From Streptomyces graminofaciens (GTDB lineage: Bacteria; Actinomycetota; Actinomycetes; Streptomycetales; Streptomycetaceae), in the NCBI RefSeq assembly GCF_030294945.1, contig NZ_AP018448.1, positions 4,866,001 to 4,930,000 on the forward strand: a DNA stretch of 64,000 nt, written 5' to 3'. Of the stretch, positions 38,444-63,627 are shown piece after piece (the stretch's first letter is position 1; every line of letters begins with the position of its first letter). A model generated the notes under the pieces. That model searched no databases. It saw only the letters and a list, made by a program, of their open reading frames with translations, and had not been told where the DNA came from. The position numbers and the translations under genes are program-made.

Positions 38444-38515
38444 GCCCCCGTAGCTCAGGGGATAGAGCAACGGCCTCCGGAGCCGTGTGCGCAGGTTCGA
38501 ATCCTGCCGGGGGCA
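38444..38515 (+). tRNA. tRNA-Arg (anticodon CCG)
   Basis: A complete cloverleaf of 72 bases: acceptor GCCCCCG paired with CGGGGGC, D-arm GCTC/GAGC, anticodon stem ACGGC/GCCGT around CTCCGGA (anticodon CCG), T-arm GCAGG-TTCGAAT-CCTGC, discriminator A followed by encoded CC. It reads CGG arginine codons. It also serves as the left attachment site of the integrated element. Confidence 0.97.
38472..38490 (+). other. Left attachment site (attL core)
   Basis: The 19 bases GGCCTCCGGAGCCGTGTGC, from the anticodon stem to the variable loop, recur exactly at 63409-63427. Tyrosine integrases commonly cross over in the anticodon loop of a tRNA gene. The integrase gene lies 1.8 kb inside this end. Confidence 0.85.
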
Positions 38516-38534
38516 CCTTGTACGAGGTGCCCAA

Positions 38535-40261: not shown

Positions 40262-41635
40262 TCACTCGTATTCGCGAAGGAGGTCCTCGATGCGCCGGTT
40301 GGCAACGTCCTGCCGTCCGTCTAGGCACTTCGCGTAGCGGGTCAGCAGGACCTCCACGCTGTTGCCGGCGCGCTCGGCGACCTCGGTGGGGTCGACGCCA
40401 GCGTTGAGCCATGTCGACAGCGCCGAGTGGCGGAGGTCGTACGGCCGACTCGCGAGCGGCGAGGCAGCGACGGCCGGCGGGAGCGCGAGGAGCCGAGCCT
40501 CCTGCCACACGCGGTAGTAGGTCGAGGACGGGACGACCGAGCCCTTCTCGCTGAAGAAGAGCCGCCCGTCGTCGGCGGTACCGAAGGTGACCAGGTGTTC
40601 GCGGAGTACAGCGACGAGGTGAGGCGGGATCGGCACGCGCCGCACGTCATCGGTCGGCCGGTTCTTCAGCCCGCGGGCGTCATGGGTCTCCCCCGAATCG
40701 GTCCATTGCTTGCCGACGGAGGGGCGGGTCCGGTGGAGGAGAGCTGATCCCCAGCCCCGTTCGGGGAGGGTCAGGTCCGTCTCGACGAGGCCGACAGCTT
40801 CCGCCGGCCGAAGGCCGCCGAAGTACATAGCGGCGAACAGACCCACGAGGCGACGGCCGCGGGCACGCCGGTATCCGCCCACATAGGAAACGGCCGCCAG
40901 AAGATTGCGAGCCTGCTCCGGGTTGGCGACCACGCGCGAGTCCACCTGGTTGGACACCTTCGGTTTCTGCCAGCGGACCGCCGTGACGGGGTTCTCGCGC
41001 AGCTCCCCCAGGTCGACGGCATAGTTCGCGGCGTTGACCAGCGTCCTGCGCTTACGCTGCACAGTTTCCGCCGCGGCTGCGGTGCCATCGAGCTTCAGTT
41101 TCAGCGAATCGAGGACCGCGCGGGCCGTGGCGGGGTCAGCAAGATCGGCAAGTGGTCGAGAGGCCTTGGACACCCAGTGGAGAACGTTCCGCACGTCGTC
41201 CGGAAGCTCCCGATCAGAGGGCCCCGGCAGTACGAATGCCCAGTTCCGCAGCGCTCTGCGGAGCGCCTCATCAGACGGACGCCCCGCACGCTCGTCCAGG
41301 AGCTCTACGGTCACACTCGTCAGTGACTCATTGATGCCATCGCGCGTGTTCGGAGCAGCGTGCGGCCACTTCATTGCCAGATACCTGAGAGCGAAGTCGT
41401 ACCAGGACACGGTGGCTTTCTGCTGTTCCATGGACGCCGGGAGCCCGGATTCCGTATCGAACTCCTCGCCGTCCCGCATGGCCCGCATCAGCTTCGCGCG
41501 GTAGTGATCAGCGAGTGCTTTGGTCCGGAAGCTGTCAGAGAAGACGTTGCCCGCCACGGACCAGCGGACACCGTACGAGGGCGTCTTGGTGTCGCGCTTC
41601 CGAACACCCCAGACTTTCACGTCGAGAGACTTCAC
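40262..41635 (-). CDS. int: Tyrosine site-specific integrase
   Basis: A 457-residue tyrosine recombinase that integrates the element at tRNA-Arg. An N-terminal arm-binding part (VRKRDTKTPSYGVRWSVAG) leads to a core-binding SAM-like domain. The C-terminal catalytic domain has Arg in FGGLRPAEAVGL, the box YDLRHSALSTWLNAG and the nucleophile Tyr in LTRYAKCLDG. GTG at 41635 overlaps the excisionase stop by four bases (GTGA), with GGAGG upstream, so the two are translated together. It is the usual AICE order rep-xis-int. Confidence 0.95.
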   Translation of the reverse strand: MKSLDVKVWGVRKRDTKTPSYGVRWSVAGNVFSDSFRTKALADHYRAKLMRAMRDGEEFDTESGLPASMEQQKATVSWYDFALRYLAMKWPHAAPNTRDGINESLTSVTVELLDERAGRPSDEALRRALRNWAFVLPGPSDRELPDDVRNVLHWVSKASRPLADLADPATARAVLDSLKLKLDGTAAAAETVQRKRRTLVNAANYAVDLGELRENPVTAVRWQKPKVSNQVDSRVVANPEQARNLLAAVSYVGGYRRARGRRLVGLFAAMYFGGLRPAEAVGLVETDLTLPERGWGSALLHRTRPSVGKQWTDSGETHDARGLKNRPTDDVRRVPIPPHLVAVLREHLVTFGTADDGRLFFSEKGSVVPSSTYYRVWQEARLLALPPAVAASPLASRPYDLRHSALSTWLNAGVDPTEVAERAGNSVEVLLTRYAKCLDGRQDVANRRIEDLLREYE

Positions 41636-41826
41636 GCCGCCGCCTCCAACTGCCGCAGCCACGTCCTGAAATCACTCCGCCACACTCTCAGCTCACCGTT
41701 GGGGAGCTTGAAAGCAGCGGGCCCCAATCCCAGTTCGCGCCAGCGATAGAACGTCCGCCGGGGCACTCCGCCAAGTTCGTCGAGGACCTGCGGGACAGTC
41801 ATGAGTTCGTCGCGGCGGTAGTCCAT
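41632..41826 (-). CDS. xis: Excisionase (MerR-like HTH)
   Basis: A 64-residue winged-HTH protein of the excisionase/AlpA type: LMTVPQVLDELGGVPRRTFYRWRELGLG followed by the wing PNGELRVWRSDFRTWL. It should bend attachment-site DNA and bias the integrase toward excision. AAGGAG precedes the ATG. Its start lies 28 bases inside the 3' end of rep, and its stop overlaps the integrase start, so all three are coupled. Confidence 0.92.
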   Translation of the reverse strand: MDYRRDELMTVPQVLDELGGVPRRTFYRWRELGLGPAAFKLPNGELRVWRSDFRTWLRQLEAAA

Positions 41827-43121
41827 GTCGGCTCTCCTTCCGTTCCAGGGGCGGGTTCGAGGGACGCGGCGAGCCAGGTCTCGCCCGCGCTGAGGCCCGT
41901 ACCGGCGAAGACCCAGTGGGCGAGGACGAGCGTGGTTTCGCCGTCCTGGGGTGTGGGCGGGGCGGCTTGTGCTCGGCGCCATTCGGCGCGGGCGTCGCGG
42001 AGGGCGCCGAGGGTGGTGGAGTAGCGGCGGGACTTGGTGGAGAAGTGGCCGCGGAAGCCGAGCATGTGCGCCCAGGCGCGTAGGCGGAGGTCTGCCAGTT
42101 CGGGGCGTGCGCCGAGGGTCCAGGCGGTGCGGATCATGCGGCGGGCGTGGTCGGTGATCCGGGCCCCGGCCAGCTCGGCGAGGAAGCGGATCGGACGGTC
42201 AAGGGTGCCGGTCGTCGTCTCGGCGCCCTTGGTGGCGTACTTGGCGATGTACGCCGCTACGGCCCGCTCGGTCAGCTCCTGGCCGCCGTCGAAGTCGGCC
42301 GAGCGGATCGGGCGGACGTCGAGCTGACGGCCGAAGGTGAAGGTGTGGGCCCGTCCGTCGACAGTCGGACCGCCGACGCGAGCGGCGGTGGCAGCGGCGT
42401 GGATGGCGTCGCTCAGCAGCTCGGCCGTGGCCCAGGCCGGGGGCGAGGTGTCGCCGCCCTCGGGGCCGTCGAGGCGGATGACCGCGTGGAAGTGGACGGC
42501 TCCGCGCTTCTGGTACTCGGCGACCTTGGCGAAGGAGATGCGGGCGTGGTCGCGGAAGGCGCGTTGCGTGAGGCCGGCCAGCTTGGCGACCTCGCGGCGG
42601 AGGTAGATGGAGAACCGGCGCCACAGGGCCCCGGCGTGGGCGTTCCAGAGCACAGCCGCTTCGTAGTCGTACGTGTCCGGGTCGAGCGGCGTGCCGAGGA
42701 CCGGGGCTGTGTCCTCGTGCCGGACGCCGCAGCGGCAGGGCCGTCCGCTGGAGGGGCGGTTGTGGACCGGTCCGAAGCTCGGGGCGGTGAAGGTGGCGAA
42801 GACGCGGGGGTGCGTGCCGACCTGTTCGGGGGTGCCCTTGCCGCCGCGCAGTCCGGCGGTGATCAGGTGGAAGGTGTCACGGCGGTAGACCTCCGCGCAG
42901 GCCGCGCAGCGGGTGGCACGGCGGTTGTTGCAGCGGACGAGGAGGTTTCCGGCGGGGAGGGTGGTCGAGTCGAGGTGGTGCAGGACGCGCCCGATCTCAC
43001 CGGTCGTCGTGTCGACGGCGTACTCGGTGCGGTGGCCGTCGAGGCGTACGGGGTGGGTGCAGCCGCCCAGGCCGGAGAGTTGGCGGGCCAGTTCGGGCAG
43101 GGTGCCGAGTGAGGCGAGCAT
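41799..43121 (-). CDS. Replication initiator protein (RepSA type)
   Basis: A 440-residue (from the first ATG) rolling-circle-type initiator of AICEs. It shows a zinc-like cluster (RCNNRRATRCAACAEVYRRDTFHL), a second CRCGVRH, and the metal-binding HFHAVIRLDG motif. The C-terminal part reads AYIAKYATKGAE and RRYSTTLGALR. The conserved frame continues upstream of the first ATG for at least 13 codons (ITRQTPPPLAELS) without ATG, GTG or TTG. AAAGGAAG lies four to seven bases before two ATC codons at 43163 and 43160, so initiation at ATC is possible. It would replicate the excised circle. Confidence 0.88.
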   Translation of the reverse strand: MLASLGTLPELARQLSGLGGCTHPVRLDGHRTEYAVDTTTGEIGRVLHHLDSTTLPAGNLLVRCNNRRATRCAACAEVYRRDTFHLITAGLRGGKGTPEQVGTHPRVFATFTAPSFGPVHNRPSSGRPCRCGVRHEDTAPVLGTPLDPDTYDYEAAVLWNAHAGALWRRFSIYLRREVAKLAGLTQRAFRDHARISFAKVAEYQKRGAVHFHAVIRLDGPEGGDTSPPAWATAELLSDAIHAAATAARVGGPTVDGRAHTFTFGRQLDVRPIRSADFDGGQELTERAVAAYIAKYATKGAETTTGTLDRPIRFLAELAGARITDHARRMIRTAWTLGARPELADLRLRAWAHMLGFRGHFSTKSRRYSTTLGALRDARAEWRRAQAAPPTPQDGETTLVLAHWVFAGTGLSAGETWLAASLEPAPGTEGEPTWTTAATNS

Positions 43122-43252
43122 GGAGAGTTCCGCCAGCGGGGGCGGAGTCTGCCGGGTGATGATGGGTCTTCCTTTCGGCTGTTTCGGCGGTTGGGAGGGA
43201 CGGCCCCGGGGCGGCTGGATGCTTGGCGGCTTGTTGCCGCCCCGGCGGCCGG

Positions 43253-43516
43253 TCAGCGCCTGTTGGCGTCGGTGACGAGGGAGCGCAGGACGACGGCGGC
43301 GATGGCCACGGAGATCGCCGAGACGGCGACCGCCGCCAGGAGCGCGGTGAGGACGACACCCACGACCACCACCGCGGCGACCGCGCCGACACCGACGCCC
43401 ACGAACGGAGCAACCGGGCGGCCGGCGGAGTGAGCCGGAACCGGGGCGTGGTTCTGCGGGATGTGCGTGGTGATGCTCGGGACGTGCGGAGTGTCGGGCA
43501 GCTTGGGACGGAACAC
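43253..43516 (-). CDS. spdD: SpdD-type plasmid spread protein
   Basis: An 87-residue membrane protein. A Pro/His-rich N-terminus (VPSITTHIPQNHAPVPAHSAG) is followed by two hydrophobic stretches (VGVGAVAAVVVVGVVLTALL and AVAVSAISVAIAAVVL). Spd proteins help intramycelial spread of conjugative elements. GTG at 43516 follows AAGGAG. The gene lies in the transfer operon between the small membrane-protein gene and rep. Confidence 0.85.
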   Translation of the reverse strand: MFRPKLPDTPHVPSITTHIPQNHAPVPAHSAGRPVAPFVGVGVGAVAAVVVVGVVLTALLAAVAVSAISVAIAAVVLRSLVTDANRR

Positions 43517-43552
43517 GGCAGGTCTCCTTTGCGGTTGTGTGCAGTCGTTGGC

Positions 43553-43747
43553 TCAGTCGCGGGCGCCGTTGACGACGTCGACCCCGGAGCGGGTGCCGGA
43601 CTCGATGGCCGGGGCGAGGACGGTGTGCGAGAGCCAGAAGCCGAACAGCGCGATCACTACGGCGACCCACATGCGGACGCCGAGGAACTTGATCGCGGCC
43701 CAGGCGATGACGCCCAGGACGAAGACGAGCGGCAACGAGACGGTCAC
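43553..43747 (-). CDS. Small membrane protein of the transfer operon
   Basis: A 64-residue protein with two membrane helices (LPLVFVLGVIAWAAIKFLGV and MWVAVVIALFGFWLSHTVLA) and a polar tail. It is a recurrent unnamed component beside spdD in AICEs and likely assists spread. GTG at 43747 follows GAGGAG. Confidence 0.8.
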   Translation of the reverse strand: MTVSLPLVFVLGVIAWAAIKFLGVRMWVAVVIALFGFWLSHTVLAPAIESGTRSGVDVVNGARD

Positions 43748-44948: not shown

Positions 44949-46325
44949 CTACTCGACGACGGGGCGAGGAGTGGCTACCGGCCCGGACGTCTCCACGGGC
45001 GCGGGCGGGACGTAGGGGCGGAAGGGCGCGAGCGCGGGCACGTCGGGTGCGAGGTGGGCCGTCTCGCGGCAGATGGCCGCCGCTTCGGCGAGGGAGAGGT
45101 GAGGCGTGCGGATGCGGGACCAGCCGCCGGACGTGTCGCCGACGACGGCGAGGCCGGGCAGCTCGGGCGCGATGCCGCAGGCCGCGTAGACCGCCTCCGG
45201 GGCGATGTCACCGAGCGCCATCTTGGCGGAGGCTTCGTCGTTGACCCGGTGGCAGACACGGCCGGTCAGCTGCGCCCGCAGCATGGTGGCGCCCTTGCCC
45301 AGCTCCGCACCGAAGCGCTGCCCGCACACCTCCAGATAGATGCCGGCCGCACGACCGAGCTGGGCAAGGCGGATGAGCTGAGTGACCATCTCGTCCCGCC
45401 GTTCCTCCTCCTTCCTGGTGGCGACGAGGAAGAGTTCCGCCACCTCGTCGATGAACAGCACGACGGGAGACGGGCGCTCGTCGTCCGGCAGGCCCCAGAT
45501 GTCAGAGGTGATCAGCTCATCCGGAGTACCGGGGGCGATACCCTGCCGGGCCTTGATCAGGTCGTAGCGCTCCTCCATTTCCTTCACCAGCACGGGCAGC
45601 AGCTCTGCCGCCTGTACCGGGTCGGTGGCCAGGGCGGAGAGCCGGGCCGCGAACGGGGCCAGCTCGACGCCGCGCTTGCAGTCGATCCCGACGAGGACAA
45701 CCGGCTGAGCGGCCAGCCCGGTGAGCAGGTTGCGCAGGAACATGGACTTGCCCGACAGCGTGGCGCCGAGGACGAGTTCATGCGGAACGGCCCGGTAGTC
45801 CCGTACGAACGCCGTCGCATCCTCGCGCAGAGCCACCGGCACCCGAAGCGGCCCGGCGACGGTCCGACGAGGCATCCGCACCTTCCGCAGGACGTCGAAG
45901 CCGACGAGCCGCAGTTCCACTACCCCGGGTTTGACGTCCCGCACGTACACGGCGTGAACGCCCCAGGCGTGCCGCAGCCGTTCGGCCGAGGCCGCCACAT
46001 CCGCAGGTTCCTGTCCCGGAGCGAGCCGCAGCCGGAGCCGCAGACCGGTCGACGTGGGCCGGATGATGCCCCGCCGAGGCGGTACGGGCCGGATCTCCCG
46101 CCGAGTGGTCGCCTTGACGGCCAGCGCCCGCAACCGGGACGGCGGGACCGTCAGGCCGCACGCGTCCATCGTTGAGGAGTACGAGGCCAGCAGCCGGGCC
46201 ACCGAGACCGGCAGCCCGACCGTGGACCAGTACGCCGCAGGGTGGGCGTGCCGGGTGTAGAGCGCGCCGCCGCCTATCGCAGCGAGCGGCGCACCCCACT
46301 CGGCCAGCGTCACCAGGTCGGTCAC
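44949..46325 (-). CDS. tra: FtsK/SpoIIIE-type conjugal DNA translocase (TraB)
   Basis: A 458-residue motor that moves double-stranded element DNA between hyphae. Residues 1-50 are weakly hydrophobic, with no strong membrane segments. The P-loop is GATLSGKS (187-194), Walker B VVLFIDEVAEL (288-298), followed by QLIRLAQLGRAAGIYLEVCGQR and MLRAQLTGRVCHRVND, the FtsK-type motifs. GTG at 46325 starts five bases after the preceding stop. It is the central transfer gene, whose overexpression is usually lethal, so the GntR repressors nearby are its likely controllers. Confidence 0.92.
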   Translation of the reverse strand: MTDLVTLAEWGAPLAAIGGGALYTRHAHPAAYWSTVGLPVSVARLLASYSSTMDACGLTVPPSRLRALAVKATTRREIRPVPPRRGIIRPTSTGLRLRLRLAPGQEPADVAASAERLRHAWGVHAVYVRDVKPGVVELRLVGFDVLRKVRMPRRTVAGPLRVPVALREDATAFVRDYRAVPHELVLGATLSGKSMFLRNLLTGLAAQPVVLVGIDCKRGVELAPFAARLSALATDPVQAAELLPVLVKEMEERYDLIKARQGIAPGTPDELITSDIWGLPDDERPSPVVLFIDEVAELFLVATRKEEERRDEMVTQLIRLAQLGRAAGIYLEVCGQRFGAELGKGATMLRAQLTGRVCHRVNDEASAKMALGDIAPEAVYAACGIAPELPGLAVVGDTSGGWSRIRTPHLSLAEAAAICRETAHLAPDVPALAPFRPYVPPAPVETSGPVATPRPVVE

Positions 46326-46330
46326 GGCGA

Positions 46331-46681
46331 TCAGCCCGCCTGTGCCATCGGGAAGGCACCCGGAGCCACGGCGGTGGCCCGGTAGGCGATGCCGTGCCGC
46401 TGCTGGCCGTTGAACACGCTCTCCCACGGCCGGGCGATGAGCCCCGGCAGCGAGACGGGAGCACCGACCGTCAGCCCGTCGGTCACCCCGCTCTCGGGGA
46501 TGGTGACCTGGATCAGGGACGACTCGCCTTCGTCGATGAAGACGACGCCGACCGTCATCAGTGCCTCACCGCTCACGGCGTCCTTGGCGATCTCCCCGGT
46601 CTGCCGGTCGCGCACCTTCGGCGCCGGCGCTTCGGTGAGCAGGATCGTGGCGGTCGAGGCGTCAATGCGGATCACACGCAC
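46331..46681 (-). CDS. SCO3933-type regulatory protein
   Basis: A 116-residue soluble beta-rich protein. Visible parts are VRVIRIDASTATILLTEAPAPKVRDRQTGEIAKDAVSGEALMTV and LTVGAPVSLPGLIARPWE. Similar proteins precede tra in AICEs and are annotated as SCO3933-family regulators; the biochemical role is unclear. GTG at 46681 follows AAGGAG by eight bases. It is the first gene after the operator-overlapped promoter at 46.74 kb. Confidence 0.8.
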   Translation of the reverse strand: MRVIRIDASTATILLTEAPAPKVRDRQTGEIAKDAVSGEALMTVGVVFIDEGESSLIQVTIPESGVTDGLTVGAPVSLPGLIARPWESVFNGQQRHGIAYRATAVAPGAFPMAQAG

Positions 46682-50954: not shown

Positions 50955-52510
50955 CCCAAGACCGGGAAGTTAGGGCTGTTGTGGCTGGTCGGGTGGGTTG
51001 ACATGGGAACGGAGCCCGGCGCGGACTGTGAGTGTCGAGGTCACGGTCCGAGGGGGCTCCGTTGTCTGTTCAGTGTGCCACCGCAGGGGTGGTTCGGGAC
51101 CGGTCGTGGGTGTGGTTGCCCGGTCATTTAGGGGTGTTGACGCGGTGGGTGCCGCCGTCGCTGGTGGACGAGGTGGTTCGAGCGGCGGGCCGGGGTGAGC
51201 GGCGGGTGCGGCTGCTGCCGGCGCGGGTGGTGGTCTACTTCGTGCTGGCCATGGTGCTGTTCCCGGAGTGTGGATACCGCCGGGTGTGGGCGTCGTTGAC
51301 GGCCAGGTGGCCCGGTTCGGCACTTGCCGATCCATCGGCAGCGGCTCTGCGGCAGGCTCGTCGGCGGTTGGGGGTCGAGCCGCTGGCGTTGCTGTTCGAC
51401 CGGCTTCGCGGCACGGTGGGCACCCCGGCAACGCCGGGGGTGTTCTGGCGGAGTCTGCGGCTGGTGGCCTGGGACGGCACCTGCGTGGAGGTGGCGGACA
51501 GCGAAGCGAACGTGGCCCGGTTCAGGCGGCATGCGGCCCGCACCACACGTCCGGCCGGCTATCCCCAGGTGCGGCTGACCGCGCTGGTGGAGTGCGGGAC
51601 CCGTGCCCTAATCGATGCGGTGTTCGGGCCGCAGCAGTACACCGAGTGGCCGCAGGCCCGTGCTCTGCTGCCCTCTCTGCAGCCTGGCATGCTGCTGCTT
51701 GCCGACCGCGGCTACGACGGCTTCGAGGCCCTGCGGGACGCTGCTGCCACCGGCGCCGATGTGCTGTGGCGGGTGCAGGCAGGGCGTCTGCTGCCCGTCA
51801 TCCGCCCGTTGCCGGACGGCACCCATCTCACCCTGGTCACCGACCGGCGCTCCGGTGACCGGCTCACCCGGTGGATGCGCCACGGCCGCCGCGGTCCGAT
51901 GCCCGCACACCTGACCGCCCTCACGCTGCGTGTGATCAGCTACCGGGTCACCCGGACCGCCGCGGACGGCACCTTTCGCACCAGCACGGTCCGCCTGGTC
52001 ACCACGCTGCTCGACCCGCACGAGCACCCGGCCGCCGAGCTGGCCGTCCTCTACCAGCAGCGCTGGGAGATCGAGACCGCCTACTACGGGCTCAAGGTCA
52101 CCCTGCGCGGAGCCGACCGCGTCCTGCGCTCACGCACCGTCGCGGGAGTTGAACAGGAACTCCTCGCGCTGCTGACCGTCTACCAGGCCGCCCGCATCGC
52201 CATGACCCAGGCGGCCACCACCGCCGGGGTCGACCCCGACCGGCTGTCCTTGACCACGGCCCTGCACACCATCCGGCTCACGCTGATCACCGCCAACACC
52301 ACAGGACCGACCCTCCTTGCGGAAGTCCTGCTGAAAGCACGCAACCTCGCGCCCACACGGCGCCGTTCACGCACCAGCCCGCGGTGCGTCAAACGCACCC
52401 TGTCGCCCTACGCCTACAACAAGACCAAAGGCAGCGTCGGACACAAGACGACCGTGACCACCACCATCACCCTGACCAGCGCCGACAGACCTTAACTTCC
52501 CGGTCTTGGG
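50955..52510 (+). mobile_element. IS4-type insertion sequence
   Basis: A 1,556-bp element bounded by near-perfect terminal inverted repeats (CCCAAGACCGGGAAGTTA at the left, complement at the right). Six-base direct repeats CTTTAG (50949-50954 and 52511-52516) look like the target duplication. The single transposase frame is intact and the ends match well, so the insertion is probably recent. Confidence 0.9.
51062..52495 (+). CDS. IS4-family transposase
   Basis: A 477-residue DDE transposase. The IS4 N-terminal domain (WLPGHLGVLTRWVPPSLVDEVV) is followed by the catalytic core: first Asp in LVAWDGTCVEVAD, second in LLLADRGYDGFEAL, and Glu in YQQRWEIETAYYGLK, the YREK-like signature. I choose the TTG at 51062, a few bases after GAGGGGG; a GTG two codons later is also possible. 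It should be functional. Confidence 0.9.
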   Translation: MSVQCATAGVVRDRSWVWLPGHLGVLTRWVPPSLVDEVVRAAGRGERRVRLLPARVVVYFVLAMVLFPECGYRRVWASLTARWPGSALADPSAAALRQARRRLGVEPLALLFDRLRGTVGTPATPGVFWRSLRLVAWDGTCVEVADSEANVARFRRHAARTTRPAGYPQVRLTALVECGTRALIDAVFGPQQYTEWPQARALLPSLQPGMLLLADRGYDGFEALRDAAATGADVLWRVQAGRLLPVIRPLPDGTHLTLVTDRRSGDRLTRWMRHGRRGPMPAHLTALTLRVISYRVTRTAADGTFRTSTVRLVTTLLDPHEHPAAELAVLYQQRWEIETAYYGLKVTLRGADRVLRSRTVAGVEQELLALLTVYQAARIAMTQAATTAGVDPDRLSLTTALHTIRLTLITANTTGPTLLAEVLLKARNLAPTRRRSRTSPRCVKRTLSPYAYNKTKGSVGHKTTVTTTITLTSADRP

Positions 52511-52718: not shown

Positions 52719-54674
52719 CTACGCATTGCCCTTATCAATAAGACTCGGGTCGAACGCGTCACGAGAATCGCGTTGCGACATCCTTGAGAGCAGGGCCGAC
52801 CGATACGGCTCTCGAAGGCGCCCAACTCTTTTCACACCATAGAACACGGTTGAGGTCTCGATCGAGATGAGCGACTGCAGGGCCGGCGAAGGTACGGTGC
52901 AAGTCAAGGCGGCGGTAATTTGATCGGCCCCTTTACCTGCAATGCGGTGAGGCTGCATAGCCTTGTATGCCGCCACCTTTTTCACAACCCAGGAACGCAA
53001 GATATTGAAACGCTCCTGCCAATTGGGCAATACGTGATCAGGCATGGCTTGATCCGAAGACAGCCAGCCAGCGCCTTGATCATTGAGGACGCACATATCA
53101 AGCGCCGTCAGGGGCACATACTGCTGCTGACTGAGCCTGACTTCAACACCGCCACCCGATTCCGAGAAGAAGAATGGGAGGTCAAATGACGTCGCAATAC
53201 CCCCACCAGGCTGCGCAATAACTCGTCCATCGACGGGTCGCTTCAACGGCGCGAGCCTGACAAATTCGAGATCATTGGTTCTCTTACCGTTGTGTCGAAT
53301 CGCCAAGTCACACGGCTGCGCCAGCAAGATCATGTAATTTTCTGCACCATCCTGCCTCGGAACTAGAGCCGCAGAGTCGTCCTCTTCCGCAACCCCACCC
53401 TTCCTACCCTTCGCCAGTTCAAAAGAATGAGGCTTGTCAACGAATTTCTGGAAGCAGAAAACATCGCCTACTTCGAGCGGAAAATGCAACTGCGTCAAAT
53501 GATCCGGCGATTCGAAATATTCCAATCGCTCAATCTCGGCAAGCTCTCTCCTGACTCTGTCAGGGTCAGGAGAATTCGGCAATTTAACCCGACTCAGCTT
53601 CGTCACTATGCGGTTCGAATTGTGCACGTTTTCATCGGCCCGCAGTTTGGCACGCACTGAGTCCTGGGTGAAGGCTGTAGCAATCCTGAGCAGTGTTTCA
53701 GGGCCCCAGGTCCCGTCTGTCAGTCTGTCCCCGTTGAGAGCGGCCTCCAAGGTGTACGGGTCGATGTCCCCAACCTTCGATATCGCCTCACCCCATGTGC
53801 CCCTCACTGCACCAGCAAGGCTCTGTTGCATGCGTTCCAACGCCGGTGCGAGCAGAGTAAGTTTCAGCATTCGGGGAAAACCTGCCTGGCTGACTGACAG
53901 GTGCCCTTTGGCGATAACTAGAAATCGGGAGGAGTCCGCATCAAACTTCTTTGCAAGAGCCTTCCATACTTCGATTTCTGCATCAGCATCGGCAACTGTG
54001 TGAGTCAGAAGACCGATACGCCAACTTTCTGGGGCATCGTGCAGGAGGGCAGCAATTTCCTGCTCACCGGCGTCTTCTGAGGCCCCCTCTCTACTGAAAT
54101 CGCGGTCAAAGAGGATCAACGTGCTCTTGCCGTCGGTCAGCAGAGCACTCCGCTGTTTGCGCCAGGAAGAGAGGGAGAGAGTGATGAACTCTCGCGAGTC
54201 GGCAAGCAACTCCCTCAAATTTGCTGCGGCTGGCTCGTCCTCTTCCGGCGAAGGTTCTAGCGGATCAGAATCGAACCCTCCAGCTACCGCGGAACGGATC
54301 TGCGCGCGCTCGACCTGATTTAGGTTTCCCCATACTTTTCTTACCTCGTCGGCGACTAGTTCCAGCGGCGTAGAGGAGTCCTCATCGACTTCCAAGGAAG
54401 GTATGGTTTTAGCGATCTTCTGTAAGTCCGCCATCCTCAGCAGACCATCGACGAGTGCAGCAAAGACGTCTTCACCATCGTCTTCACGCTCGGCGTACCA
54501 GTCATCGACACAGATAATCCGGTCGACTCGCGCAAGAGTCAGCAGCTCCTGCGAAGCCGCTTTGGCGTCGAAAGGCACAACAACCGTAGGGCTCGGCTGT
54601 GCAGGGATAGCTGGCGCGTTGGCGTCGACACCAGTCGCCGCAGCCTCCATGGTGTTCCCATCACGCTTCAACAC
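52719..54674 (-). CDS. Receiver-like protein with split receiver domain and unknown C-terminal domain
   Basis: A 651-residue soluble protein with no family I can name. The N-terminus looks like a response-regulator receiver in pieces: acidic pair D57-D58 after a hydrophobic strand (RIICVDD), candidate phosphoacceptor D190 (STLILFDRD), Thr in GLLTHT (about 222-226) and Lys256 (FLVIAKG). About 130 acidic residues are inserted between the first and third strands. Residues 260-651 include MILLAQPCDLAIRHNGKR and FFFSESGGGVEVRLSQQQY and may be the effector. GTG at 54674 lies 14 bases inside the ATPase gene; ATG at 54650 is the alternative. Last gene of the operon. Confidence 0.75.
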   Translation of the reverse strand: MLKRDGNTMEAAATGVDANAPAIPAQPSPTVVVPFDAKAASQELLTLARVDRIICVDDWYAEREDDGEDVFAALVDGLLRMADLQKIAKTIPSLEVDEDSSTPLELVADEVRKVWGNLNQVERAQIRSAVAGGFDSDPLEPSPEEDEPAAANLRELLADSREFITLSLSSWRKQRSALLTDGKSTLILFDRDFSREGASEDAGEQEIAALLHDAPESWRIGLLTHTVADADAEIEVWKALAKKFDADSSRFLVIAKGHLSVSQAGFPRMLKLTLLAPALERMQQSLAGAVRGTWGEAISKVGDIDPYTLEAALNGDRLTDGTWGPETLLRIATAFTQDSVRAKLRADENVHNSNRIVTKLSRVKLPNSPDPDRVRRELAEIERLEYFESPDHLTQLHFPLEVGDVFCFQKFVDKPHSFELAKGRKGGVAEEDDSAALVPRQDGAENYMILLAQPCDLAIRHNGKRTNDLEFVRLAPLKRPVDGRVIAQPGGGIATSFDLPFFFSESGGGVEVRLSQQQYVPLTALDMCVLNDQGAGWLSSDQAMPDHVLPNWQERFNILRSWVVKKVAAYKAMQPHRIAGKGADQITAALTCTVPSPALQSLISIETSTVFYGVKRVGRLREPYRSALLSRMSQRDSRDAFDPSLIDKGNA

Positions 54675-57186
54675 GCATCCCCCCTAGATCCAAACGGAAT
54701 TTAAACAGTCGCCCGTTTACGTTACGCTCGGACGCTAGCTCGATTGTGCACCCCTCAGAATCGAGCAACTGCGTTACGACATAGAGCCCGAGCCCTCTAC
54801 CCTCTCCCCGTTTCTTGAATGAAATAAACGGTTCGAAGAGTGTCGCTTCAACGCTTTTATCGATTCCACGACCATTATCGCTAACTGTCACCACAGGCGA
54901 GTTCACCCTGATAGAGATCTCGGGTGCCTCTTGCACGCCCATCCGATGATCTTGGAGTAGCCAATACTCGCTATTCAATACGAGATTGTCAATTACCTGG
55001 GTGAGCTTCCCTCGGTTCACTTCAACATCGAAATCGCGTTCAACTGAAACGACGATAGCGATTGGCCCCTTACTCAATCGCTCGCGATGATAGCCAACCA
55101 TTTCCTCGCAGAAACTGGAGACACAAAGCCGCTCGCGACGCTCACGCATGTAGCGCAGCGAGGGATTTAGGTGGCCCAATTGACGCTTCAGTGCGCTCGC
55201 CGCGGACTGAATGTACTGCACGTAGTTGAGGATTCGCCTATCCGCGATTTCAGCTTCGGCGAGATACTTGCGAAGTTGAGTACTTCTGACGGAGATACCC
55301 TCTGCGACATGGGCAACCTCATGGGAAACCGCTTCAGCCGTGAGGCCCAGAGATACTGTTTCCCATGTTTGTGCCAGTTGAGACCGAATTTGCTCCGACT
55401 GGCTTTTCAGTACGTCCAGTACTGCTTGCTCTGAGTCCAGCGAGTCGAAAATTGCCTCGATCCCGGAGACTGACTCTTCAGTTCGCTTTTCACGAGCGCG
55501 CAGATTGGTTAGTTCTTTTTCAATCGCAGGGTCTACGGCGCCAGCGAAGAGTGATCGCTGGCTTGCATCGAGCTCTTTAGCCACTCGCTCGTGGCCTTTA
55601 CTGGCCTCGTCTGCGTCTTTCCGAATGCTTTTAATATGCTGCTTCGCAGTTACAATAGTGCGCTTGTGCGTGTTCTCGACATGTTGGATGAGTACCTCAG
55701 TGCTGGCTTCCGGATCGAGCCCAGCCGCAGAGATACTCGTTTCCTGACGATACTCATTGTATGAACGGCGAATGAACGTCTGGAATTGCTCCGTAAAGGA
55801 ACGCCAGGCCTGCAAAAGAGCCATAAAGTTGCGATAGTGCGGCGTGTCAGCAAAACCTTCGCGGTCCGTTGTCTCGATCAATTGGCCGTTATCGCGAGCG
55901 GAGATATCGATGAAGCCCAGCGTATTCTCAGGCCTAAGCGCGTAAAAAGACGAACCACTCGTCTGAGATTTCCGCAGCCCAACCCAGTCTTCATCCATCC
56001 GAACGCCGAAACCATCACGGTATACGCGGAGTCCGGCCAAGCTCTTCAAATAAGTTCGGAACTCGCTGCGAGAGCCGAACGCGTCGGGTTGACCCTGCCC
56101 CAGAGTCACGTAATCTACTTCACCGTTAAATTTTCCTGGATCCGCAGGAGCACTGTCAGATCCGATCCCGCCCGTCCTGTGTAGCGCCACATTATCGAGA
56201 TCCGCCAACCGGAATGACCGGTGGGCTCGCAACAGGTACGGGGAATCAGCCCGGTGACAGTCAAAGGCTTCCATTTGCCTAGCCCGACTTTGGTGCAGCC
56301 AATCCATAAATGCATTGCCTGCATCGCTGTGCAGCAGCGCCTCAAAAGCTGCTCTATCCTCTGGCTTAGCTCGATCCTGAGGTGCCCAATAGCTCAGGGC
56401 CGCTTCGCCAACAATCTCTAGAGTGCCATCGGCATAGTCTAGGAAATAGCGAAGTTCTGCTGCCCGGCGGACCCGCTTAGGTAGCTCATAGAGGTCGATG
56501 CGCTCCCCATCGACCTTCAAGAGAATCTTTAAACCTCTCTCATCACCGTACGGCGAGATCATGACTGAGAGGTCCTTCTGGAGGGCGGACGCGCCCTCGC
56601 CAGTGCTGCTCATTGCTGCGTTGCGCCACTGTTCTGGCTCACGAAGCTCAGTAATAGTCAGTGTCGTACCATGACGCTTGCTGGTTGGCCGTGACAAGAG
56701 AGTTAGGTCGACTTCACTAAGTGAAGACTTGCTCTGGAATTCGCGCCAGTCGATAGTCAACTCATACTCTACGTTCCCGCCCTTGGGGCGGGTGACGATA
56801 GTGACAACATCGCCCAGCCTCTGAGCACCGAGCCGGCCGAGCCCTTTATCTCCGAGAGGTGTCCTACCGCGATCAGTAGCGATCCCACGAGCTTTCATTT
56901 CCCGTTTGACCGAATTGCTAATCGTGAGCCAACCCCGCCTGATGTCCTCGATCGTCATGCCTGAGCCATTATCACTCAGCTTGATCGAAGGCTGCTCTTG
57001 CTTCCCTGCGGCAGAGAGACCGGTGTCAATTGTAATTTCTGCCCAGGTGCCATCTGCGTCATATGAATTTTTCACAAGCTCGATAAGGGCTTGCATTGAG
57101 TCAGTGATGAGGTCTTCACCTAGCTTGAAGACAACCGAAGGATGGACTTCTAGGTGGAACACCTCGGGTCCATGCGTTTCAGACAT
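54661..57186 (-). CDS. Dual GHKL ATPase: MORC/Hsp90-like N-terminus, histidine-kinase-like C-terminus
   Basis: An 841-residue soluble protein. N-terminal Bergerat ATPase: N-box ELVKNSYDAD (36-45), DNGSGM (72-77), GDKGLGRLG (112-120), as in HATPase_c_3/MORC/Hsp90 proteins. Residues ~510-600 are a charged coiled coil. A second GHKL domain has a DHp-like helix AVSHEVAHVAEG (H622), N-box IDNLVLNSEYW, DNGRGID (770-776) and GEGRGLGLYVV. The C-terminal half is therefore a histidine kinase in layout, and the receiver-like product of the next gene is its natural partner. It follows the methyltransferase gene by 15 bases. Codon use is AT-richer than the chromosome. Confidence 0.85.
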   Translation of the reverse strand: MSETHGPEVFHLEVHPSVVFKLGEDLITDSMQALIELVKNSYDADGTWAEITIDTGLSAAGKQEQPSIKLSDNGSGMTIEDIRRGWLTISNSVKREMKARGIATDRGRTPLGDKGLGRLGAQRLGDVVTIVTRPKGGNVEYELTIDWREFQSKSSLSEVDLTLLSRPTSKRHGTTLTITELREPEQWRNAAMSSTGEGASALQKDLSVMISPYGDERGLKILLKVDGERIDLYELPKRVRRAAELRYFLDYADGTLEIVGEAALSYWAPQDRAKPEDRAAFEALLHSDAGNAFMDWLHQSRARQMEAFDCHRADSPYLLRAHRSFRLADLDNVALHRTGGIGSDSAPADPGKFNGEVDYVTLGQGQPDAFGSRSEFRTYLKSLAGLRVYRDGFGVRMDEDWVGLRKSQTSGSSFYALRPENTLGFIDISARDNGQLIETTDREGFADTPHYRNFMALLQAWRSFTEQFQTFIRRSYNEYRQETSISAAGLDPEASTEVLIQHVENTHKRTIVTAKQHIKSIRKDADEASKGHERVAKELDASQRSLFAGAVDPAIEKELTNLRAREKRTEESVSGIEAIFDSLDSEQAVLDVLKSQSEQIRSQLAQTWETVSLGLTAEAVSHEVAHVAEGISVRSTQLRKYLAEAEIADRRILNYVQYIQSAASALKRQLGHLNPSLRYMRERRERLCVSSFCEEMVGYHRERLSKGPIAIVVSVERDFDVEVNRGKLTQVIDNLVLNSEYWLLQDHRMGVQEAPEISIRVNSPVVTVSDNGRGIDKSVEATLFEPFISFKKRGEGRGLGLYVVTQLLDSEGCTIELASERNVNGRLFKFRLDLGGMRVEA

Positions 57187-57201
57187 TCGTGGCTCCTTCC
57201 T

Positions 57202-58647
57202 TCACGAACGGGAATCGCAATGGGTGTCACAGGGGCCACGCATGACCAAGACGCTTTCACTGTTCATCGTCTCTACGCTGGCGTTCCGCGCTGCCATTCT
57301 CTTCGATCCCCCAGGGATCTTTCTCTCCAGCGTCTCAACATGCCGAGCTCCGCGAGCTGCCAGTAGGTCTCGAACGATGGCTACTGTAGGCACGCGGACA
57401 CCGCTAATCTTTCGCTCACCAAGCGTCCAGAACATCCAGGAATTACTACGCAGACGCGAGACAATCGCGTCAAGCGATTCATCCAGGTCTCGAATAAAAG
57501 CAACCATCCTGGTCTGCGCGTTGCGTGGATGACCATCCAACTGGTCGAGACACTGTGCGAATGCTGCCGACTTGACCCGCAACTCGTCGGCCCAATCCAG
57601 TGATCCTTTTAGTTTTCCACCTAGGCTGATTGAATCAATCGATCGCGTATATTCAAGCAGCTCTTGCCTCATCCCAGGAACGTCAGTCGAGTCGATCCAC
57701 TGCAACGGCAAGTAGCTATGCTGCCCGTAGGTGACTGTTGTAACGTTATCCCCGTAAGGAGGAGACGTCATTAGAATATCCGCGGTCGCGCGATACTTTG
57801 ACCTGGCGGCACTTCGAGCATCAGCGACTGTGCAGGTGATTGAAAGGCTCGGATTCATATCCAATCCCTGCGCAAGGACCACAGCCTGATCCTCAAGTTG
57901 TTCAATTTGGGATGCAGAGATTCGCAGGAAGGTATCGATCGCATTAAGCTGTCGCGCCTGAATCTCTTCGGGCCTGTACGAGTGCAGCTTAACCGTGGAG
58001 GTCCGACTATTGCTCACCAGTCGGATAGTCTCAGCCAGAGCAACCCAGAAGGCCTGGCGAACCACCCTGGGGCGCTCAACCGAGATAGCCCTTTTTAGCT
58101 TTGACAGATCTATGGCCACGTCATCGCGAAACCATTTATCGCGGTTAGTAAAGTTGACGATAATTTCGTGGCTTTCGTCCTCTATTACTCGCACGGCAAT
58201 GCGCTGGCGCACCTTGGCAAGCAGTTCAGGGTCATAGATATGAGACTTGACGGTTGCCAGAAGAACGGCCAGAGGATTGATATCCGTCCCATGAAAAGAC
58301 AAGCCACGCCGCGCCGATTCGAGCATCACGGTGCCAGAGCCCATGAAGGGGTCGAGGACGGTCGAGACGGTTGGATCGACTGCTTGTACATCTTCCAGCA
58401 GGGCTCCCTGTAGCTGCGGAACCATCATTGCCGGGTAAGCGAAAATGCCATGACCGCCCTCACGGCGCGAGCGGCCGGAGAATGACCAAAATTCAGGGCT
58501 TAACGCGGCACGCTCCCGAAGCCGTGCAGCCAGGTCCTCCTCGGCGCCATCGGGTGGCAGGCTCAGGGGCTCTGCCAGGCCCTCCCTCTGCGTGGGAACC
58601 CGCTGCGCATCAGCTCTACTGGCGTTCGGCCCCGATGGGCGACCCAT
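57202..58647 (-). CDS. DNA N4-cytosine/N6-adenine methyltransferase
   Basis: A 481-residue SAM-dependent DNA methylase. Motif I is LDPFMGSGTVMLES followed by GTDINPLA (from about residue 98). Catalytic motif IV is TSPPYGDN (about 294-301). Their order with ~190 residues between, probably the target-recognition part, resembles the alpha amino-methylases. TSPPY is common in N4-cytosine enzymes. I choose ATG at 58647, five bases after GGAGG; an in-frame ATG at 58677 and TTG at 58689 are alternatives. First gene of the operon; it would mark self DNA for the ATPase/receiver partners. No separate restriction nuclease is recognisable. Confidence 0.87.
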   Translation of the reverse strand: MGRPSGPNASRADAQRVPTQREGLAEPLSLPPDGAEEDLAARLRERAALSPEFWSFSGRSRREGGHGIFAYPAMMVPQLQGALLEDVQAVDPTVSTVLDPFMGSGTVMLESARRGLSFHGTDINPLAVLLATVKSHIYDPELLAKVRQRIAVRVIEDESHEIIVNFTNRDKWFRDDVAIDLSKLKRAISVERPRVVRQAFWVALAETIRLVSNSRTSTVKLHSYRPEEIQARQLNAIDTFLRISASQIEQLEDQAVVLAQGLDMNPSLSITCTVADARSAARSKYRATADILMTSPPYGDNVTTVTYGQHSYLPLQWIDSTDVPGMRQELLEYTRSIDSISLGGKLKGSLDWADELRVKSAAFAQCLDQLDGHPRNAQTRMVAFIRDLDESLDAIVSRLRSNSWMFWTLGERKISGVRVPTVAIVRDLLAARGARHVETLERKIPGGSKRMAARNASVETMNSESVLVMRGPCDTHCDSRS

Positions 58648-58979
58648 CTCACCCTCCATCACGGCAGGGTCCGTCATTGAGTTGATCAACCCGGCCCCCC
58701 GCCTGCGCAGTTACTGTAAACAAGTTCATTGATTGAAGCAGATGACATGTCGTCACGTCACGGCTACTGGCGGCCAGAGAGGGTGACGAGGCTGTCCTGT
58801 TGGCTGATTCGGTGGCATGACGTGACCAAACGGTGCCAAGCGCGCAGCTACACGCATGTCAGTTCGCCAGCTTCTGAGGTGTTGTTAGCCCTCTGCCTCG
58901 GCACGAGCCCACTCTTACCGCTTCCCGGGCAGGCCCCGCTGCTCCTTCGGCGGCCGAGCCACCAGCAACACGGGATTGC

Positions 58980-59467: not shown

Positions 59468-60322
59468 TGAGGTCTTTCAGCGTTGCCGCTCCAGGGTGAG
59501 GATAGCTGCGCCGATTGACGTCATTCGATTCGGGCTGCATCGGGATCGGCGGAAGATGCGCCAGGACTTCAGGCGTGCGATGCCGCGCTCAACTCGGGGC
59601 CCGCGCCCTCGACAGCGCCCGGTTGACGGTCTGTTGGGTGAGCGTCAGTTCGCCTCCCGCAGGCCGTCTGGCCGGTGTGGTCACCCACGCGCCGGCACCG
59701 ATGTAGGCGCGATCGGCGAGGATCGGCACTCCTTGGGGCTCGCAGATCCTGATGATCCAGTGGGCGCGGGCCGCGGTCAGGTCGTGGCAGCGCCCCGGCA
59801 GGGCCGAAGACAGCCACAGCACCTCGCCATGGAGGTCGGTGACCACCTGCACGTTCACCCCGTGCCGTCGGTGCTTGGCCGAGTAGTCGGCCCGGCCGTC
59901 ACCGAGGCGGTCGCACTCGGCCAGGGTGCCATCCAGCAGGACGAACTTGGGGTCCGTCTCCCGCAGAGCGGGCAACAGGCCCGGGGCACGGGCGGCCAGC
60001 AGCTCGATGAGCGCGCTGGTGTAGGCGTGCGCGGTGCCGACCGAGATGCCGAACCCGGCGGCGATCTGTGCGAGGGACTCGTGCTTGCGCAGGTACACCA
60101 GAGTGGGAGCTTGCATCGGCGGTCACCCTCGCGGGTGACGATGAGCATGGTGACCCACTCGATGAGCGCATGGGGCAGGTCGAGTGCGGCAGGATGAGGG
60201 ACCAACAGGGCTCCTGCGCCGATGGGTTGAGACTTCGAACACCTCCCTCAACGGCACGGGAGCCTTGTGCGTTGTGGCTAAGGTCGCTGTCACCCGATCG
60301 GTGCCCTCACTGAAAGACCTCA
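59468..60322 (-). mobile_element. IS5-like insertion sequence, copy A
   Basis: An 855-bp element with 13-bp terminal inverted repeats TGAGGTCTTTCAG at 59468-59480 and its complement at 60310-60322. Its transposase is broken (see the pseudogene entry). A shortened inverted copy lies at 62756-63285. Confidence 0.88.
59477..60205 (-). pseudogene. IS5-like (DDE_Tnp_4) transposase, frameshifted
   Basis: Three frames together give a transposase. The N-terminal piece is ALDLPHALIEWVTMLIVTREGDRR. The main piece runs from VYLRKHESLAQIAAGFGISVGTAHAYTSAL through the catalytic LLDGTLAECDR and ILADRAYIGAG. The C-terminal piece is VERGIARLKSWRIFRRSRCSPNRMTSIGAAILTLERQR. The first junction probably lost several codons, and the second is a one-base shift near 59,590. 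IS5 relatives can use programmed frameshifting, but two breaks argue for decay. Confidence 0.82.
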
Positions 60323-60510: not shown

Positions 60511-60891
60511 ATGTCCCAGACAGCAACCTTGGAATTGCCAGATTTGACGGAACTGGAAGCCCTGGCATTGCGCGAGGAGCTCGGCGAAACTGTGCGCATC
60601 GACAAGGCTGCTGTCGATGCCAAGGAGGATGGATATAAAGACCTAGGCTTGGTCACAGCTATCGTGATCCTCCTAATACCTATCGCTAAGTCGCTTTCCA
60701 GTGCCCTCGCGAAACGCAAGAGCGTCGTAGAGAAGACTTACACCTTGACCCTGCCGGACGGCTCCGTTGAGGAGGGAACGCTGCGGATCACGGCCTCCAC
60801 ACCGGCTCCCCCTGAAGTCACCGCCTCCGGGGCCGAGTTGTCGGCATTCCTTGCAAGCCAAGATCCGCCCACTGGCACCCAAGCGCAATGA
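60511..60891 (+). CDS. Small single-span membrane protein of the IS-flanked cassette
   Basis: A 126-residue protein. An acidic N-terminus (LPDLTELEALALREELGETV) precedes one hydrophobic segment at about residues 45-60 (LGLVTAIVILLIPIAKSL). A basic stop and a beta-rich tail with KTYTLTLPDGSVEEGTLRITAS follow. The layout (short acidic N-terminus, one membrane span, then an LPDG strand) recalls the EACC1-type effector-associated components of actinobacterial conflict systems, but only loosely. GGGAG precedes the ATG. Its stop overlaps the next start by four bases (ATGA). Confidence 0.78.
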   Translation: MSQTATLELPDLTELEALALREELGETVRIDKAAVDAKEDGYKDLGLVTAIVILLIPIAKSLSSALAKRKSVVEKTYTLTLPDGSVEEGTLRITASTPAPPEVTASGAELSAFLASQDPPTGTQAQ

Positions 60892-63285: not shown

Positions 63286-63627
63286 ATGACTCTTACCGCC
63301 ACGGGCGTCCCAGACCCGTACTCAACAGCTGTGGACTATCCGTGGACTCGTCCAGCCCGGACAACCGTGCGCAGGGCGATGACCTGCAGGAGTGCGTAGG
63401 AGCCAAAAGGCCTCCGGAGCCGTGTGCCACTGCGCCTATCCGGCGAAGGACGACACCCGGCAGCGTGGCTGAGGCCGGTGGGGGTGCAGCGAGGCACACG
63501 CGCGCCTGGTCGTTCGGCGCACCCGCCGTCGTGGCTCACTGTCGTCGGCTGAGGTCTAGACGGTCGCGGAAGGGTGCGTCTCTGCATCGGTGCGCGGCAT
63601 GTCAGCAGAGGCCGGCATCACGCGACG
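63286..63627. other. Right-end non-coding region of the element
   Basis: About 340 bases around the right attachment site hold no convincing gene; open frames here are short and of poor composition. The attachment core lies at 63409-63427. Confidence 0.5.
63409..63427 (+). other. Right attachment site (attR core)
   Basis: An exact 19-base copy of the tRNA-Arg anticodon-arm segment GGCCTCCGGAGCCGTGTGC. The identity stops on both sides, so the rest of the tRNA 3' half is not duplicated here. The right limit of the element is placed at this copy. Confidence 0.8.

Follow-up and report, generated by a model that had tools for sequence, protein, structure and literature searches.

Detocs, a two-component phage defense system, pairs a kinase with a receiver-linked toxic effector; it has a separate receiver-only protein and an effector that cleaves nucleosides. 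Here we describe a trio of minus-strand genes from Streptomyces graminofaciens encoding a DNA methylase, a dual-GHKL histidine-kinase-like protein, and a receiver-effector protein (contig NZ_AP018448.1, positions 4,866,001 to 4,930,000; this whole stretch of 64,000 nucleotides is called the window, and all coordinates refer to it). Unlike Detocs, the trio always comes with a methylase, its effector is predicted to have a MazF/CcdB-like fold, and no further receiver gene was recurrent in its flanks among the matches listed. None of the three proteins had a Detocs-named PADLOC match among the matches listed (25 of 32 for the methylase), the presence of Detocs models in that release being unchecked.

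Two described groups of loci linked to restriction-modification (R-M) resemble the trio. Iyer, Abhiman and Aravind (2008) reported MORC/paraMORC GHKL ATPases in R-M operons (PMC2292703), which have in common with the trio an N-terminal GHKL ATPase beside DNA methylases; unlike in those operons, the ATPase of the trio is joined to a histidine-kinase core, with a receiver protein coming next, and the word "receiver" is absent from the main text of that article as available to us. The other group is the HEF_HK/Response_reg_2 family, for which Bellieny-Rabelo, Pretorius and Moleleki (2021) proposed an R-M-linked two-component system with signaling cascades controlling R-M systems (PMC8011034). According to the available portions of that article, which describe a study based on sequence analysis, the kinase-like proteins are soluble and mostly combine HATPase_c_3, HEF_HK, and HATPase_c (174/222), are linked to Response_reg_2 receiver-like proteins in 91.6% of 644 regions, and neighbor R-M genes, chiefly those of C5 methylases. 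HEF_HK is also mentioned in PMC10663231, and the title or DOI string of PMC8011034 occurs in PMC8895600 and PMC9953108. In PMC13092281, a figure legend on predicted systems abbreviates both HATPase and REC, which may or may not belong to one system or to this one.

The trio has in common with the family, as far as it is described in those portions of PMC8011034, the order HATPase_c_3, DHp-like His-Glu helix, and HATPase_c in the kinase, an adjoining gene for a receiver-like protein that has the DD/D/K residues, and a nearby DNA methylase. An initial annotation of the window, made from the sequence, had called this set of genes a candidate undescribed system; that claim has to be given up, and with it the idea of a categorically new system, since PMC8011034 already covers the same domain order alongside DNA methylases and receiver-like proteins. 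We do not claim that the trio simply belongs to the Pfam-defined family either, because the cut-offs of HEF_HK and Response_reg_2 were both missed. Two differences stand out: the methylase of the window's clade belongs to one amino-type family in 41/41 loci, whereas that of the published family is mostly of the C5 type, and the receiver C terminus of the clade has a predicted toxin fold, of which the available portions of PMC8011034 make no mention. What is new is the assignment of a predicted MazF/CcdB fold with an invariant Cys to the receiver C terminus; the kind itself was predicted in 2021. No receiver-MazF fusion or defense test of the family was recognized in a literature search that had most subscription papers and all preprints outside its scope, and a named defense system was rejected as an identification, as PADLOC yielded MTase_II for the methylase and, for the kinase, partial matches only.

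The trio is a strictly conserved three-gene unit

In order of transcription, the genes of the trio are as follows.

57202..58689, minus strand: DNA methyltransferase, 495 aa, TTG start, with GSGT and SPPY motifs and a PADLOC MTase_II match
54661..57186, minus strand: dual-GHKL histidine-kinase-like protein, 841 aa, assigned by Pfam domains and homologues
52719..54674, minus strand: receiver-effector protein, 651 aa, GTG start, without Pfam match

The coordinates of the open reading frames (ORFs) bear out the layout given in the initial annotation, with a gap of 15 bases between the methylase and kinase genes and an overlap of 14 bases between the kinase and receiver genes. Its operon extent of 52719..58647 holds the same genes and falls short at one end: the methylase starts at the TTG at 58689, and 58647 is the in-frame Met15. 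A scan for promoters and terminators gave counts not above those of shuffled sequences.

Genome and viral contigs were scanned with A2, an alignment of 21 homologues of the kinase, yielding 151 loci, made up of the best 80 of at least 569 relatives on genome contigs and 71 viral-contig loci. The 41 loci with a kinase ORF scoring >300 bits against the A2 profile are termed close and form the window's clade, and the other 110 serve as the outgroup. The initial annotation had named rare adjacency of the three genes as one result that would refute its reading; we found the opposite. A homologue of the window methylase adjoins the kinase gene in 41/41 close loci, lying upstream on the same strand in 35, downstream on the same strand in 4, and downstream and convergent in 2, and all but one of the upstream methylases (34/35) are separated from the kinase gene by -34 to 12 bases, the remaining one, in L032, which carries a frameshift, by 337. 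Because a window-type methylase scoring >100 bits occurs in 41/41 close versus 0/110 distant loci (6/110 at >40 bits), the association of methylase and kinase exceeds chance. Conversely, a C5-type ORF with the PPCQ motif is present within the four nearest neighbors in 0/41 close versus 24/110 distant loci. The next ORF after the kinase is receiver-like in all 40 loci in which the contig continues (that of L083 stops within the kinase); the A1 profile detected 39 of these 40 receiver-like ORFs, that of L032 being split in two ORFs, and the one in L033 was assigned by alignment and motifs.

Residues and distances were compared in 40 sets, comprising the window and 39 loci, with L032 and L083 left out. 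Protein distances correlated at 0.84 for methylase and kinase, 0.89 for kinase and receiver, and 0.81 for methylase and receiver, each value being reached in 0/2000 permutations; these correlations may partly reflect organism phylogeny, and the set includes near-duplicate loci (L022/L023). By record titles, from which the phylum names were assigned and in which labels of metagenome-assembled genomes (MAGs) could be wrong, the trio is found in Bacteroidota, deltaproteobacteria, alpha- and gammaproteobacteria, Actinomycetota, Bacillota, an Anaerolineaceae MAG, an Aminicenantes MAG, and two Nanoarchaeia-labelled MAGs. Within the window's clade, the trio is thus a strictly conserved three-gene unit across several phyla. 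At the level of the genus Streptomyces it is rare: the receiver protein was found at E 1e-10 in 2/295 genomes, that of the window included, and the second of them carries the full trio in the same order with identities of 75, 70, and 68%. No match to the kinase was found in records of isolated phages at E 1e-20, and two plasmid records matched it at E 1e-50.

The full trios in the two MAGs labelled Candidatus Nanoarchaeia (L008 and L024) come from one study and reflect either transfer into archaea or misbinned contigs.

Conserved residues and predicted folds

Most of the methylase (residues 67-484) is covered by a match to PADLOC MTase_II (E 2.5e-93), SPPY is present in 40/40 sets, and the protein is, judged by its motifs, an amino-type DNA methylase. 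The dedicated methylase that is a feature of type II R-M systems is present here, given the MTase_II match and a methylase in 41/41 loci.

In the kinase-like protein, three features carry the assignment.

56698..57099, minus strand: HATPase_c_3 (MORC/Hsp90-like ATPase), residues 30-163; Pfam PF13589, E 4.9e-17; E36 and N40 in 39/39 ungapped sets
55321..55323, minus strand: H622, DHp-like phosphoacceptor candidate, in 40/40 sets
54685..55008, minus strand: HATPase_c (kinase catalytic ATPase), residues 727-834; Pfam PF02518, E 1.4e-19; N738 in 40/40 sets

The two ATPases are separated by a long linker and by a helix bearing SHE at H622-E623, with residue 623 being Glu in 36/40 sets and Asp in 4/40. 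HEF_HK (PF19191) matches weakly around H622 (residues 613-650, 13.5 bits versus a cut-off of 24.1), and solved histidine-kinase cores match the C-terminal part of the protein (ZraS, E 5.2e-9). The N terminus aligns with the beginning of the model of BbrUII/HgiDII restriction enzymes at E 3.1e-19, with 69 bits against a cut-off of 550 and over the ATPase end only, and the N-terminal ATPase is matched by PADLOC REase_II models at E 2.6e-7.

The 651-aa receiver-effector protein had no family match in Pfam, PADLOC, or NCBIfam at E up to 1 or in PHROGs at E up to 0.001. Its parts were recognized by structure prediction and conserved residues.

53853..54548, minus strand: predicted receiver fold, residues about 43-274 (D57, D58, D190, K256); structure prediction
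54105..54107, minus strand: D190, candidate phosphorylated Asp, in 40/40 sets
52722..53498, minus strand: C-terminal domain, residues 393-651, predicted MazF/CcdB fold; structure prediction and invariant residues
53307..53318, minus strand: QPCD motif, residues 453-456; C455 in 40, Q453 in 37, D456 in 26, and P454 in 24 of 40 sets

D57, D190, and K256 are each conserved in 40/40 sets and D58 in 37/40. The initial annotation had identified the three products as a DNA methylase, a protein uniting a MORC/Hsp90-like with a histidine-kinase-like ATPase, and a receiver-like protein, and had singled out D190, H622, and SPPY. The first two identities agree with the database matches above, the third is backed by the predicted receiver fold and the conserved active-site residues despite the lack of any family match, and all three sites proved invariant. 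It had also left the action of the protein to a C-terminal domain, which now takes a concrete predicted form.

Two models predict the toxin fold of MazF/CcdB for this domain, in which G403, D404, F406, C455, R460, D526, and G534 are present in 40/40 sets. The predicted fold is common to the MazF/CcdB/Kid toxins; unlike in these, the domain of the trio lies within a receiver protein and has large inserts and a QPCD/Arg signature. Pfam toxin families of the MazF/CcdB fold matched 0/37 clade members at E 0.1, a PDB sequence search with the profile of the domain gave flagellin as its best match (E 0.084), with MazF and CcdB absent from the matches, and Foldseek with the whole receiver protein gave an unrelated best match (E 0.06). 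No DNA-binding output domain was recognized in the receiver protein by Pfam or structure prediction. Searching with the C-terminal domain alone, among candidates of 0.55-1.75 times the query length, returned 18 proteins at E 1, and the 8 inspected resemble trio fragments or deletion products.

Three metagenomic proteins (P0163, P0164, and P0168) consist of the same methylase N terminus fused to the C-terminal domain of the receiver, with a different junction in each. This looks like a loss of the intervening kinase and receiver parts, and the proteins are either true deletions or assembly artifacts.

Relationship to Response_reg_2 proteins and outgroups

Response_reg_2 (PF19192) matched 0/37 clade members at E 0.1 and 0/22 members of the outgroup A3. 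The same model found nothing in 149 actinobacterial genomes, and since it also found nothing in 14 controls, this zero does not show absence. In the genomes of 18 loci, it gave five matches at E 1, all under the cut-off, including the receiver ORFs of L048 (20.2 bits) and L036 (13.9 bits); a Pfam scan of the L048 receiver protein did not list PF19192.

Genuine Response_reg_2 proteins were found in 3/274 genomes of the class of Vibrio atypicus, the one in L162 scoring 102.6 bits. They have 555, 605, and 617 aa, with adjoining kinases of 435, 438, and 439 aa, and end in a segment similar to the C-terminal one of the window's clade, which contains QQRCD or SPACDL in these proteins and closes with SRVG or TRVG. 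The L162 kinase, the only one of the three that was scanned, has HEF_HK (97.5 bits) and HATPase_c and is without HATPase_c_3.

Comparing the C-terminal profile of the window's clade with others gave P 1.7e-8 for the sister clade A6 (28 columns), 8.5e-5 for A3 (31 columns), 2e-4 for A5 (31 columns), and 7.8e-4 for the genuine Response_reg_2 proteins (27 columns; reversed control 0.27), and comparing A6 with the genuine proteins gave P 1.9e-4 (123 columns), reversed controls for these five comparisons ranging from 0.27 to 0.94. The pairs A3-A5, A6-A5, and A5-genuine were weak (P 0.03, 0.013, and 0.04). For the receiver half, the profile of the window's clade gave a weak link or none (A3, P 0.0023; A6, P 0.26; A5, P 0.025 with a reversed control of 0.019), and the full-length receiver profile of the clade (A4) matched that of A3 weakly (30 columns, probability 21%). 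In the outgroup, with next ORFs of 330 aa or more considered, CD occurs in the second half of 56/77 versus 294/1540 shuffles. Because of these C-terminal profile comparisons and the CD in outgroup ORFs, we think that the effector domain, which was modelled in the window's clade alone, is common to the whole kind.

Loci of the A6 sister group (L117, L121, L124, L130, L135, and L040) encode a methylase distantly like that of the window (>40 bits), a kinase, and a shorter receiver with GD...CD, and 5/6 come from viral-collection contigs. Nine cyanobacterial loci (L041, L044, L050, L052, L056, L058, L063, L068, and L073) have a related GHKL protein followed by genes of ~230 aa and ~330 aa, possibly the halves of a split receiver-effector.

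The trio lies in a probable integrative element

The window holds the following features of a mobile element around the trio.

38444..38517, plus strand: tRNA-Arg gene, probable integration site, a 19-bp piece of which is repeated downstream
40262..41662, minus strand: probable integrase (Phage_integrase, 22.3 bits, under the cut-off of 27.1)
41799..43670, minus strand: RepSA replication initiator of the pSAM2 type (512.7 bits)
44949..46427, minus strand: FtsK/SpoIIIE family, probable transfer protein (115.4 bits)
63409..63427, plus strand: 19-bp direct repeat matching tRNA-Arg bases 38472-38490, which probably marks the far end of the element

Because the two 19-bp copies bracket ~24.9 kb that hold the trio, the latter is probably cargo of a pSAM2-type integrative element; as a chance control, another exact copy of a 19-mer was found in the window for 3/400 random 130-bp pieces. 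With RepSA, the FtsK/SpoIIIE protein, the sub-cut-off integrase, the tRNA-Arg gene, and the repeat, the earlier placement of the trio among the cargo of a conjugative element is supported. The G+C content is 0.542 and 0.547 in the two 2-kb blocks wholly within the operon versus 0.64-0.76 over the initial 52 kb of the window.

A transposase gene of the IS4 type (51032-52495, plus strand) ends 223 bases from the stop codon of the receiver gene, and a 175-aa DDE transposase ORF with DDE_Tnp_4 and a helix-turn-helix (59589-60116, minus strand) lies ~0.9 kb upstream of the methylase start. Also beside the trio within the probable element is the gene of a 619-aa protein without Pfam or PADLOC match (60888-62747, plus strand), preceded by a 126-aa ORF (60511-60891).

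The flanks of other copies were surveyed with 127 ORFs of 170 aa or more from 37/41 loci, L022, L032, L033, and L083 being left out. Pfam families among the matches listed (25 of 155 families) were Phage_integrase (7), CI-type repressor (3), HNH_2 (3), relaxase (2), and resolvase (2), and PADLOC matches at E 1e-15 among those listed (25 of 78 families, several models sharing one name) were single ORFs for BrxL, PglZ, HmaC, Drt2, PD-T7-1, PDC-S, GajB, and ShosA. Mobile-element and defense genes accordingly stand beside the trio in some loci; the survey has no matched control, and these are counts with no claim of enrichment. Among the matches listed, there was no recurring fourth gene (the top family reached 7), and no separate nuclease, antitoxin-like, further receiver, or further R-M gene was recurrent.

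Proposed mechanism and alternative explanations

We give an even chance to the general chain in which the trio is a self-contained, mobile, modification-gated defense system of a two-component-like kind. The methylase, going by its motifs, would mark host DNA, and the MORC-like N-terminal ATPase of the dual-GHKL protein would engage DNA and react to an absent mark. The absent mark would turn on the kinase half, leading to phosphorylation of H622 and then of receiver D190, as the invariant residues suggest. Phosphorylation of D190 would in turn release the domain with the predicted MazF/CcdB fold, which may attack nucleic acid or some different vital target, and the freed effector would halt the invader or the infected cell. 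Support comes from the strictness of the trio in the clade, the invariant phosphorelay residues, the predicted receiver fold, the effector fold predicted by two models, and the lack of a recurrent separate nuclease gene. Also in favor are the clade-specific methylase, the defense and mobile-element genes in the flanks, the rarity of the trio in the genus, and its location in a probable integrative element. A plain reading of the conserved residues has three observations against it: the narrow pattern of methylase motif I is found in only 24/40 sets, receiver Thr226 is Thr in just 17/40, and D456 is replaced by Asn in 12/40.

The trio could also act as a restriction endonuclease, which we consider unlikely. 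The methylase is obligate, no other nuclease gene recurs in the flanks, the N-terminal ATPase resembles the N terminus of BbrUII/HgiDII and the REase_II models, and the invariant C455, R460, D526, and D404 could form an active site; however, the predicted fold is that of the MazF/CcdB toxins, unlike known restriction-nuclease folds, and the BbrUII match spans the ATPase end only. A regulatory pair, with kinase and receiver controlling the methylase or host genes at the level of expression or activity and the C-terminal domain serving as a binding module, would fit the canonical kinase and receiver residues and has been proposed in print (PMC8011034, in its available portions), but we recognized no DNA-binding output domain, the C-terminal fold is predicted to be a toxin fold, and the flanks show no recurrent further R-M gene, all of which makes this explanation decidedly improbable to us. 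We give very little credence to the trio being an addiction module only, in which loss of the element would let methylation fade, the toxin-fold receiver would kill cured cells, and defense would be a by-product: its location in a probable integrative element, the predicted toxin fold, and the integrases, relaxases, and resolvases adjoining other copies would suit such a module, but no antitoxin-like fourth gene recurs. Addiction and defense are mutually compatible.

Extended beyond the window's clade, the defense reading would describe a family of immune systems in which failed DNA modification is relayed by His-Asp transfer from a MORC-type, DNA-engaging ATPase fused to a histidine kinase to a receiver-gated toxin of the MazF/CcdB fold, with the published Response_reg_2 proteins being receiver-toxin fusions too; we offer this tentatively and lean toward doubting it. 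The available portions of PMC8011034 assign no output to the 2021 family, and the predicted toxin fold supplies a candidate. Together with a strict trio that has its own methylase across several phyla, the fold makes a testable machine of three parts out of a two-component system known from the vicinity of R-M genes. If the defense reading is true, restriction would be done by a signaling cascade and a toxin and not by an endonuclease, epigenetic self-marking would be coupled to a phosphorelay and toxin release, and bacterial MORC-type ATPases would gain a concrete role as sensors.

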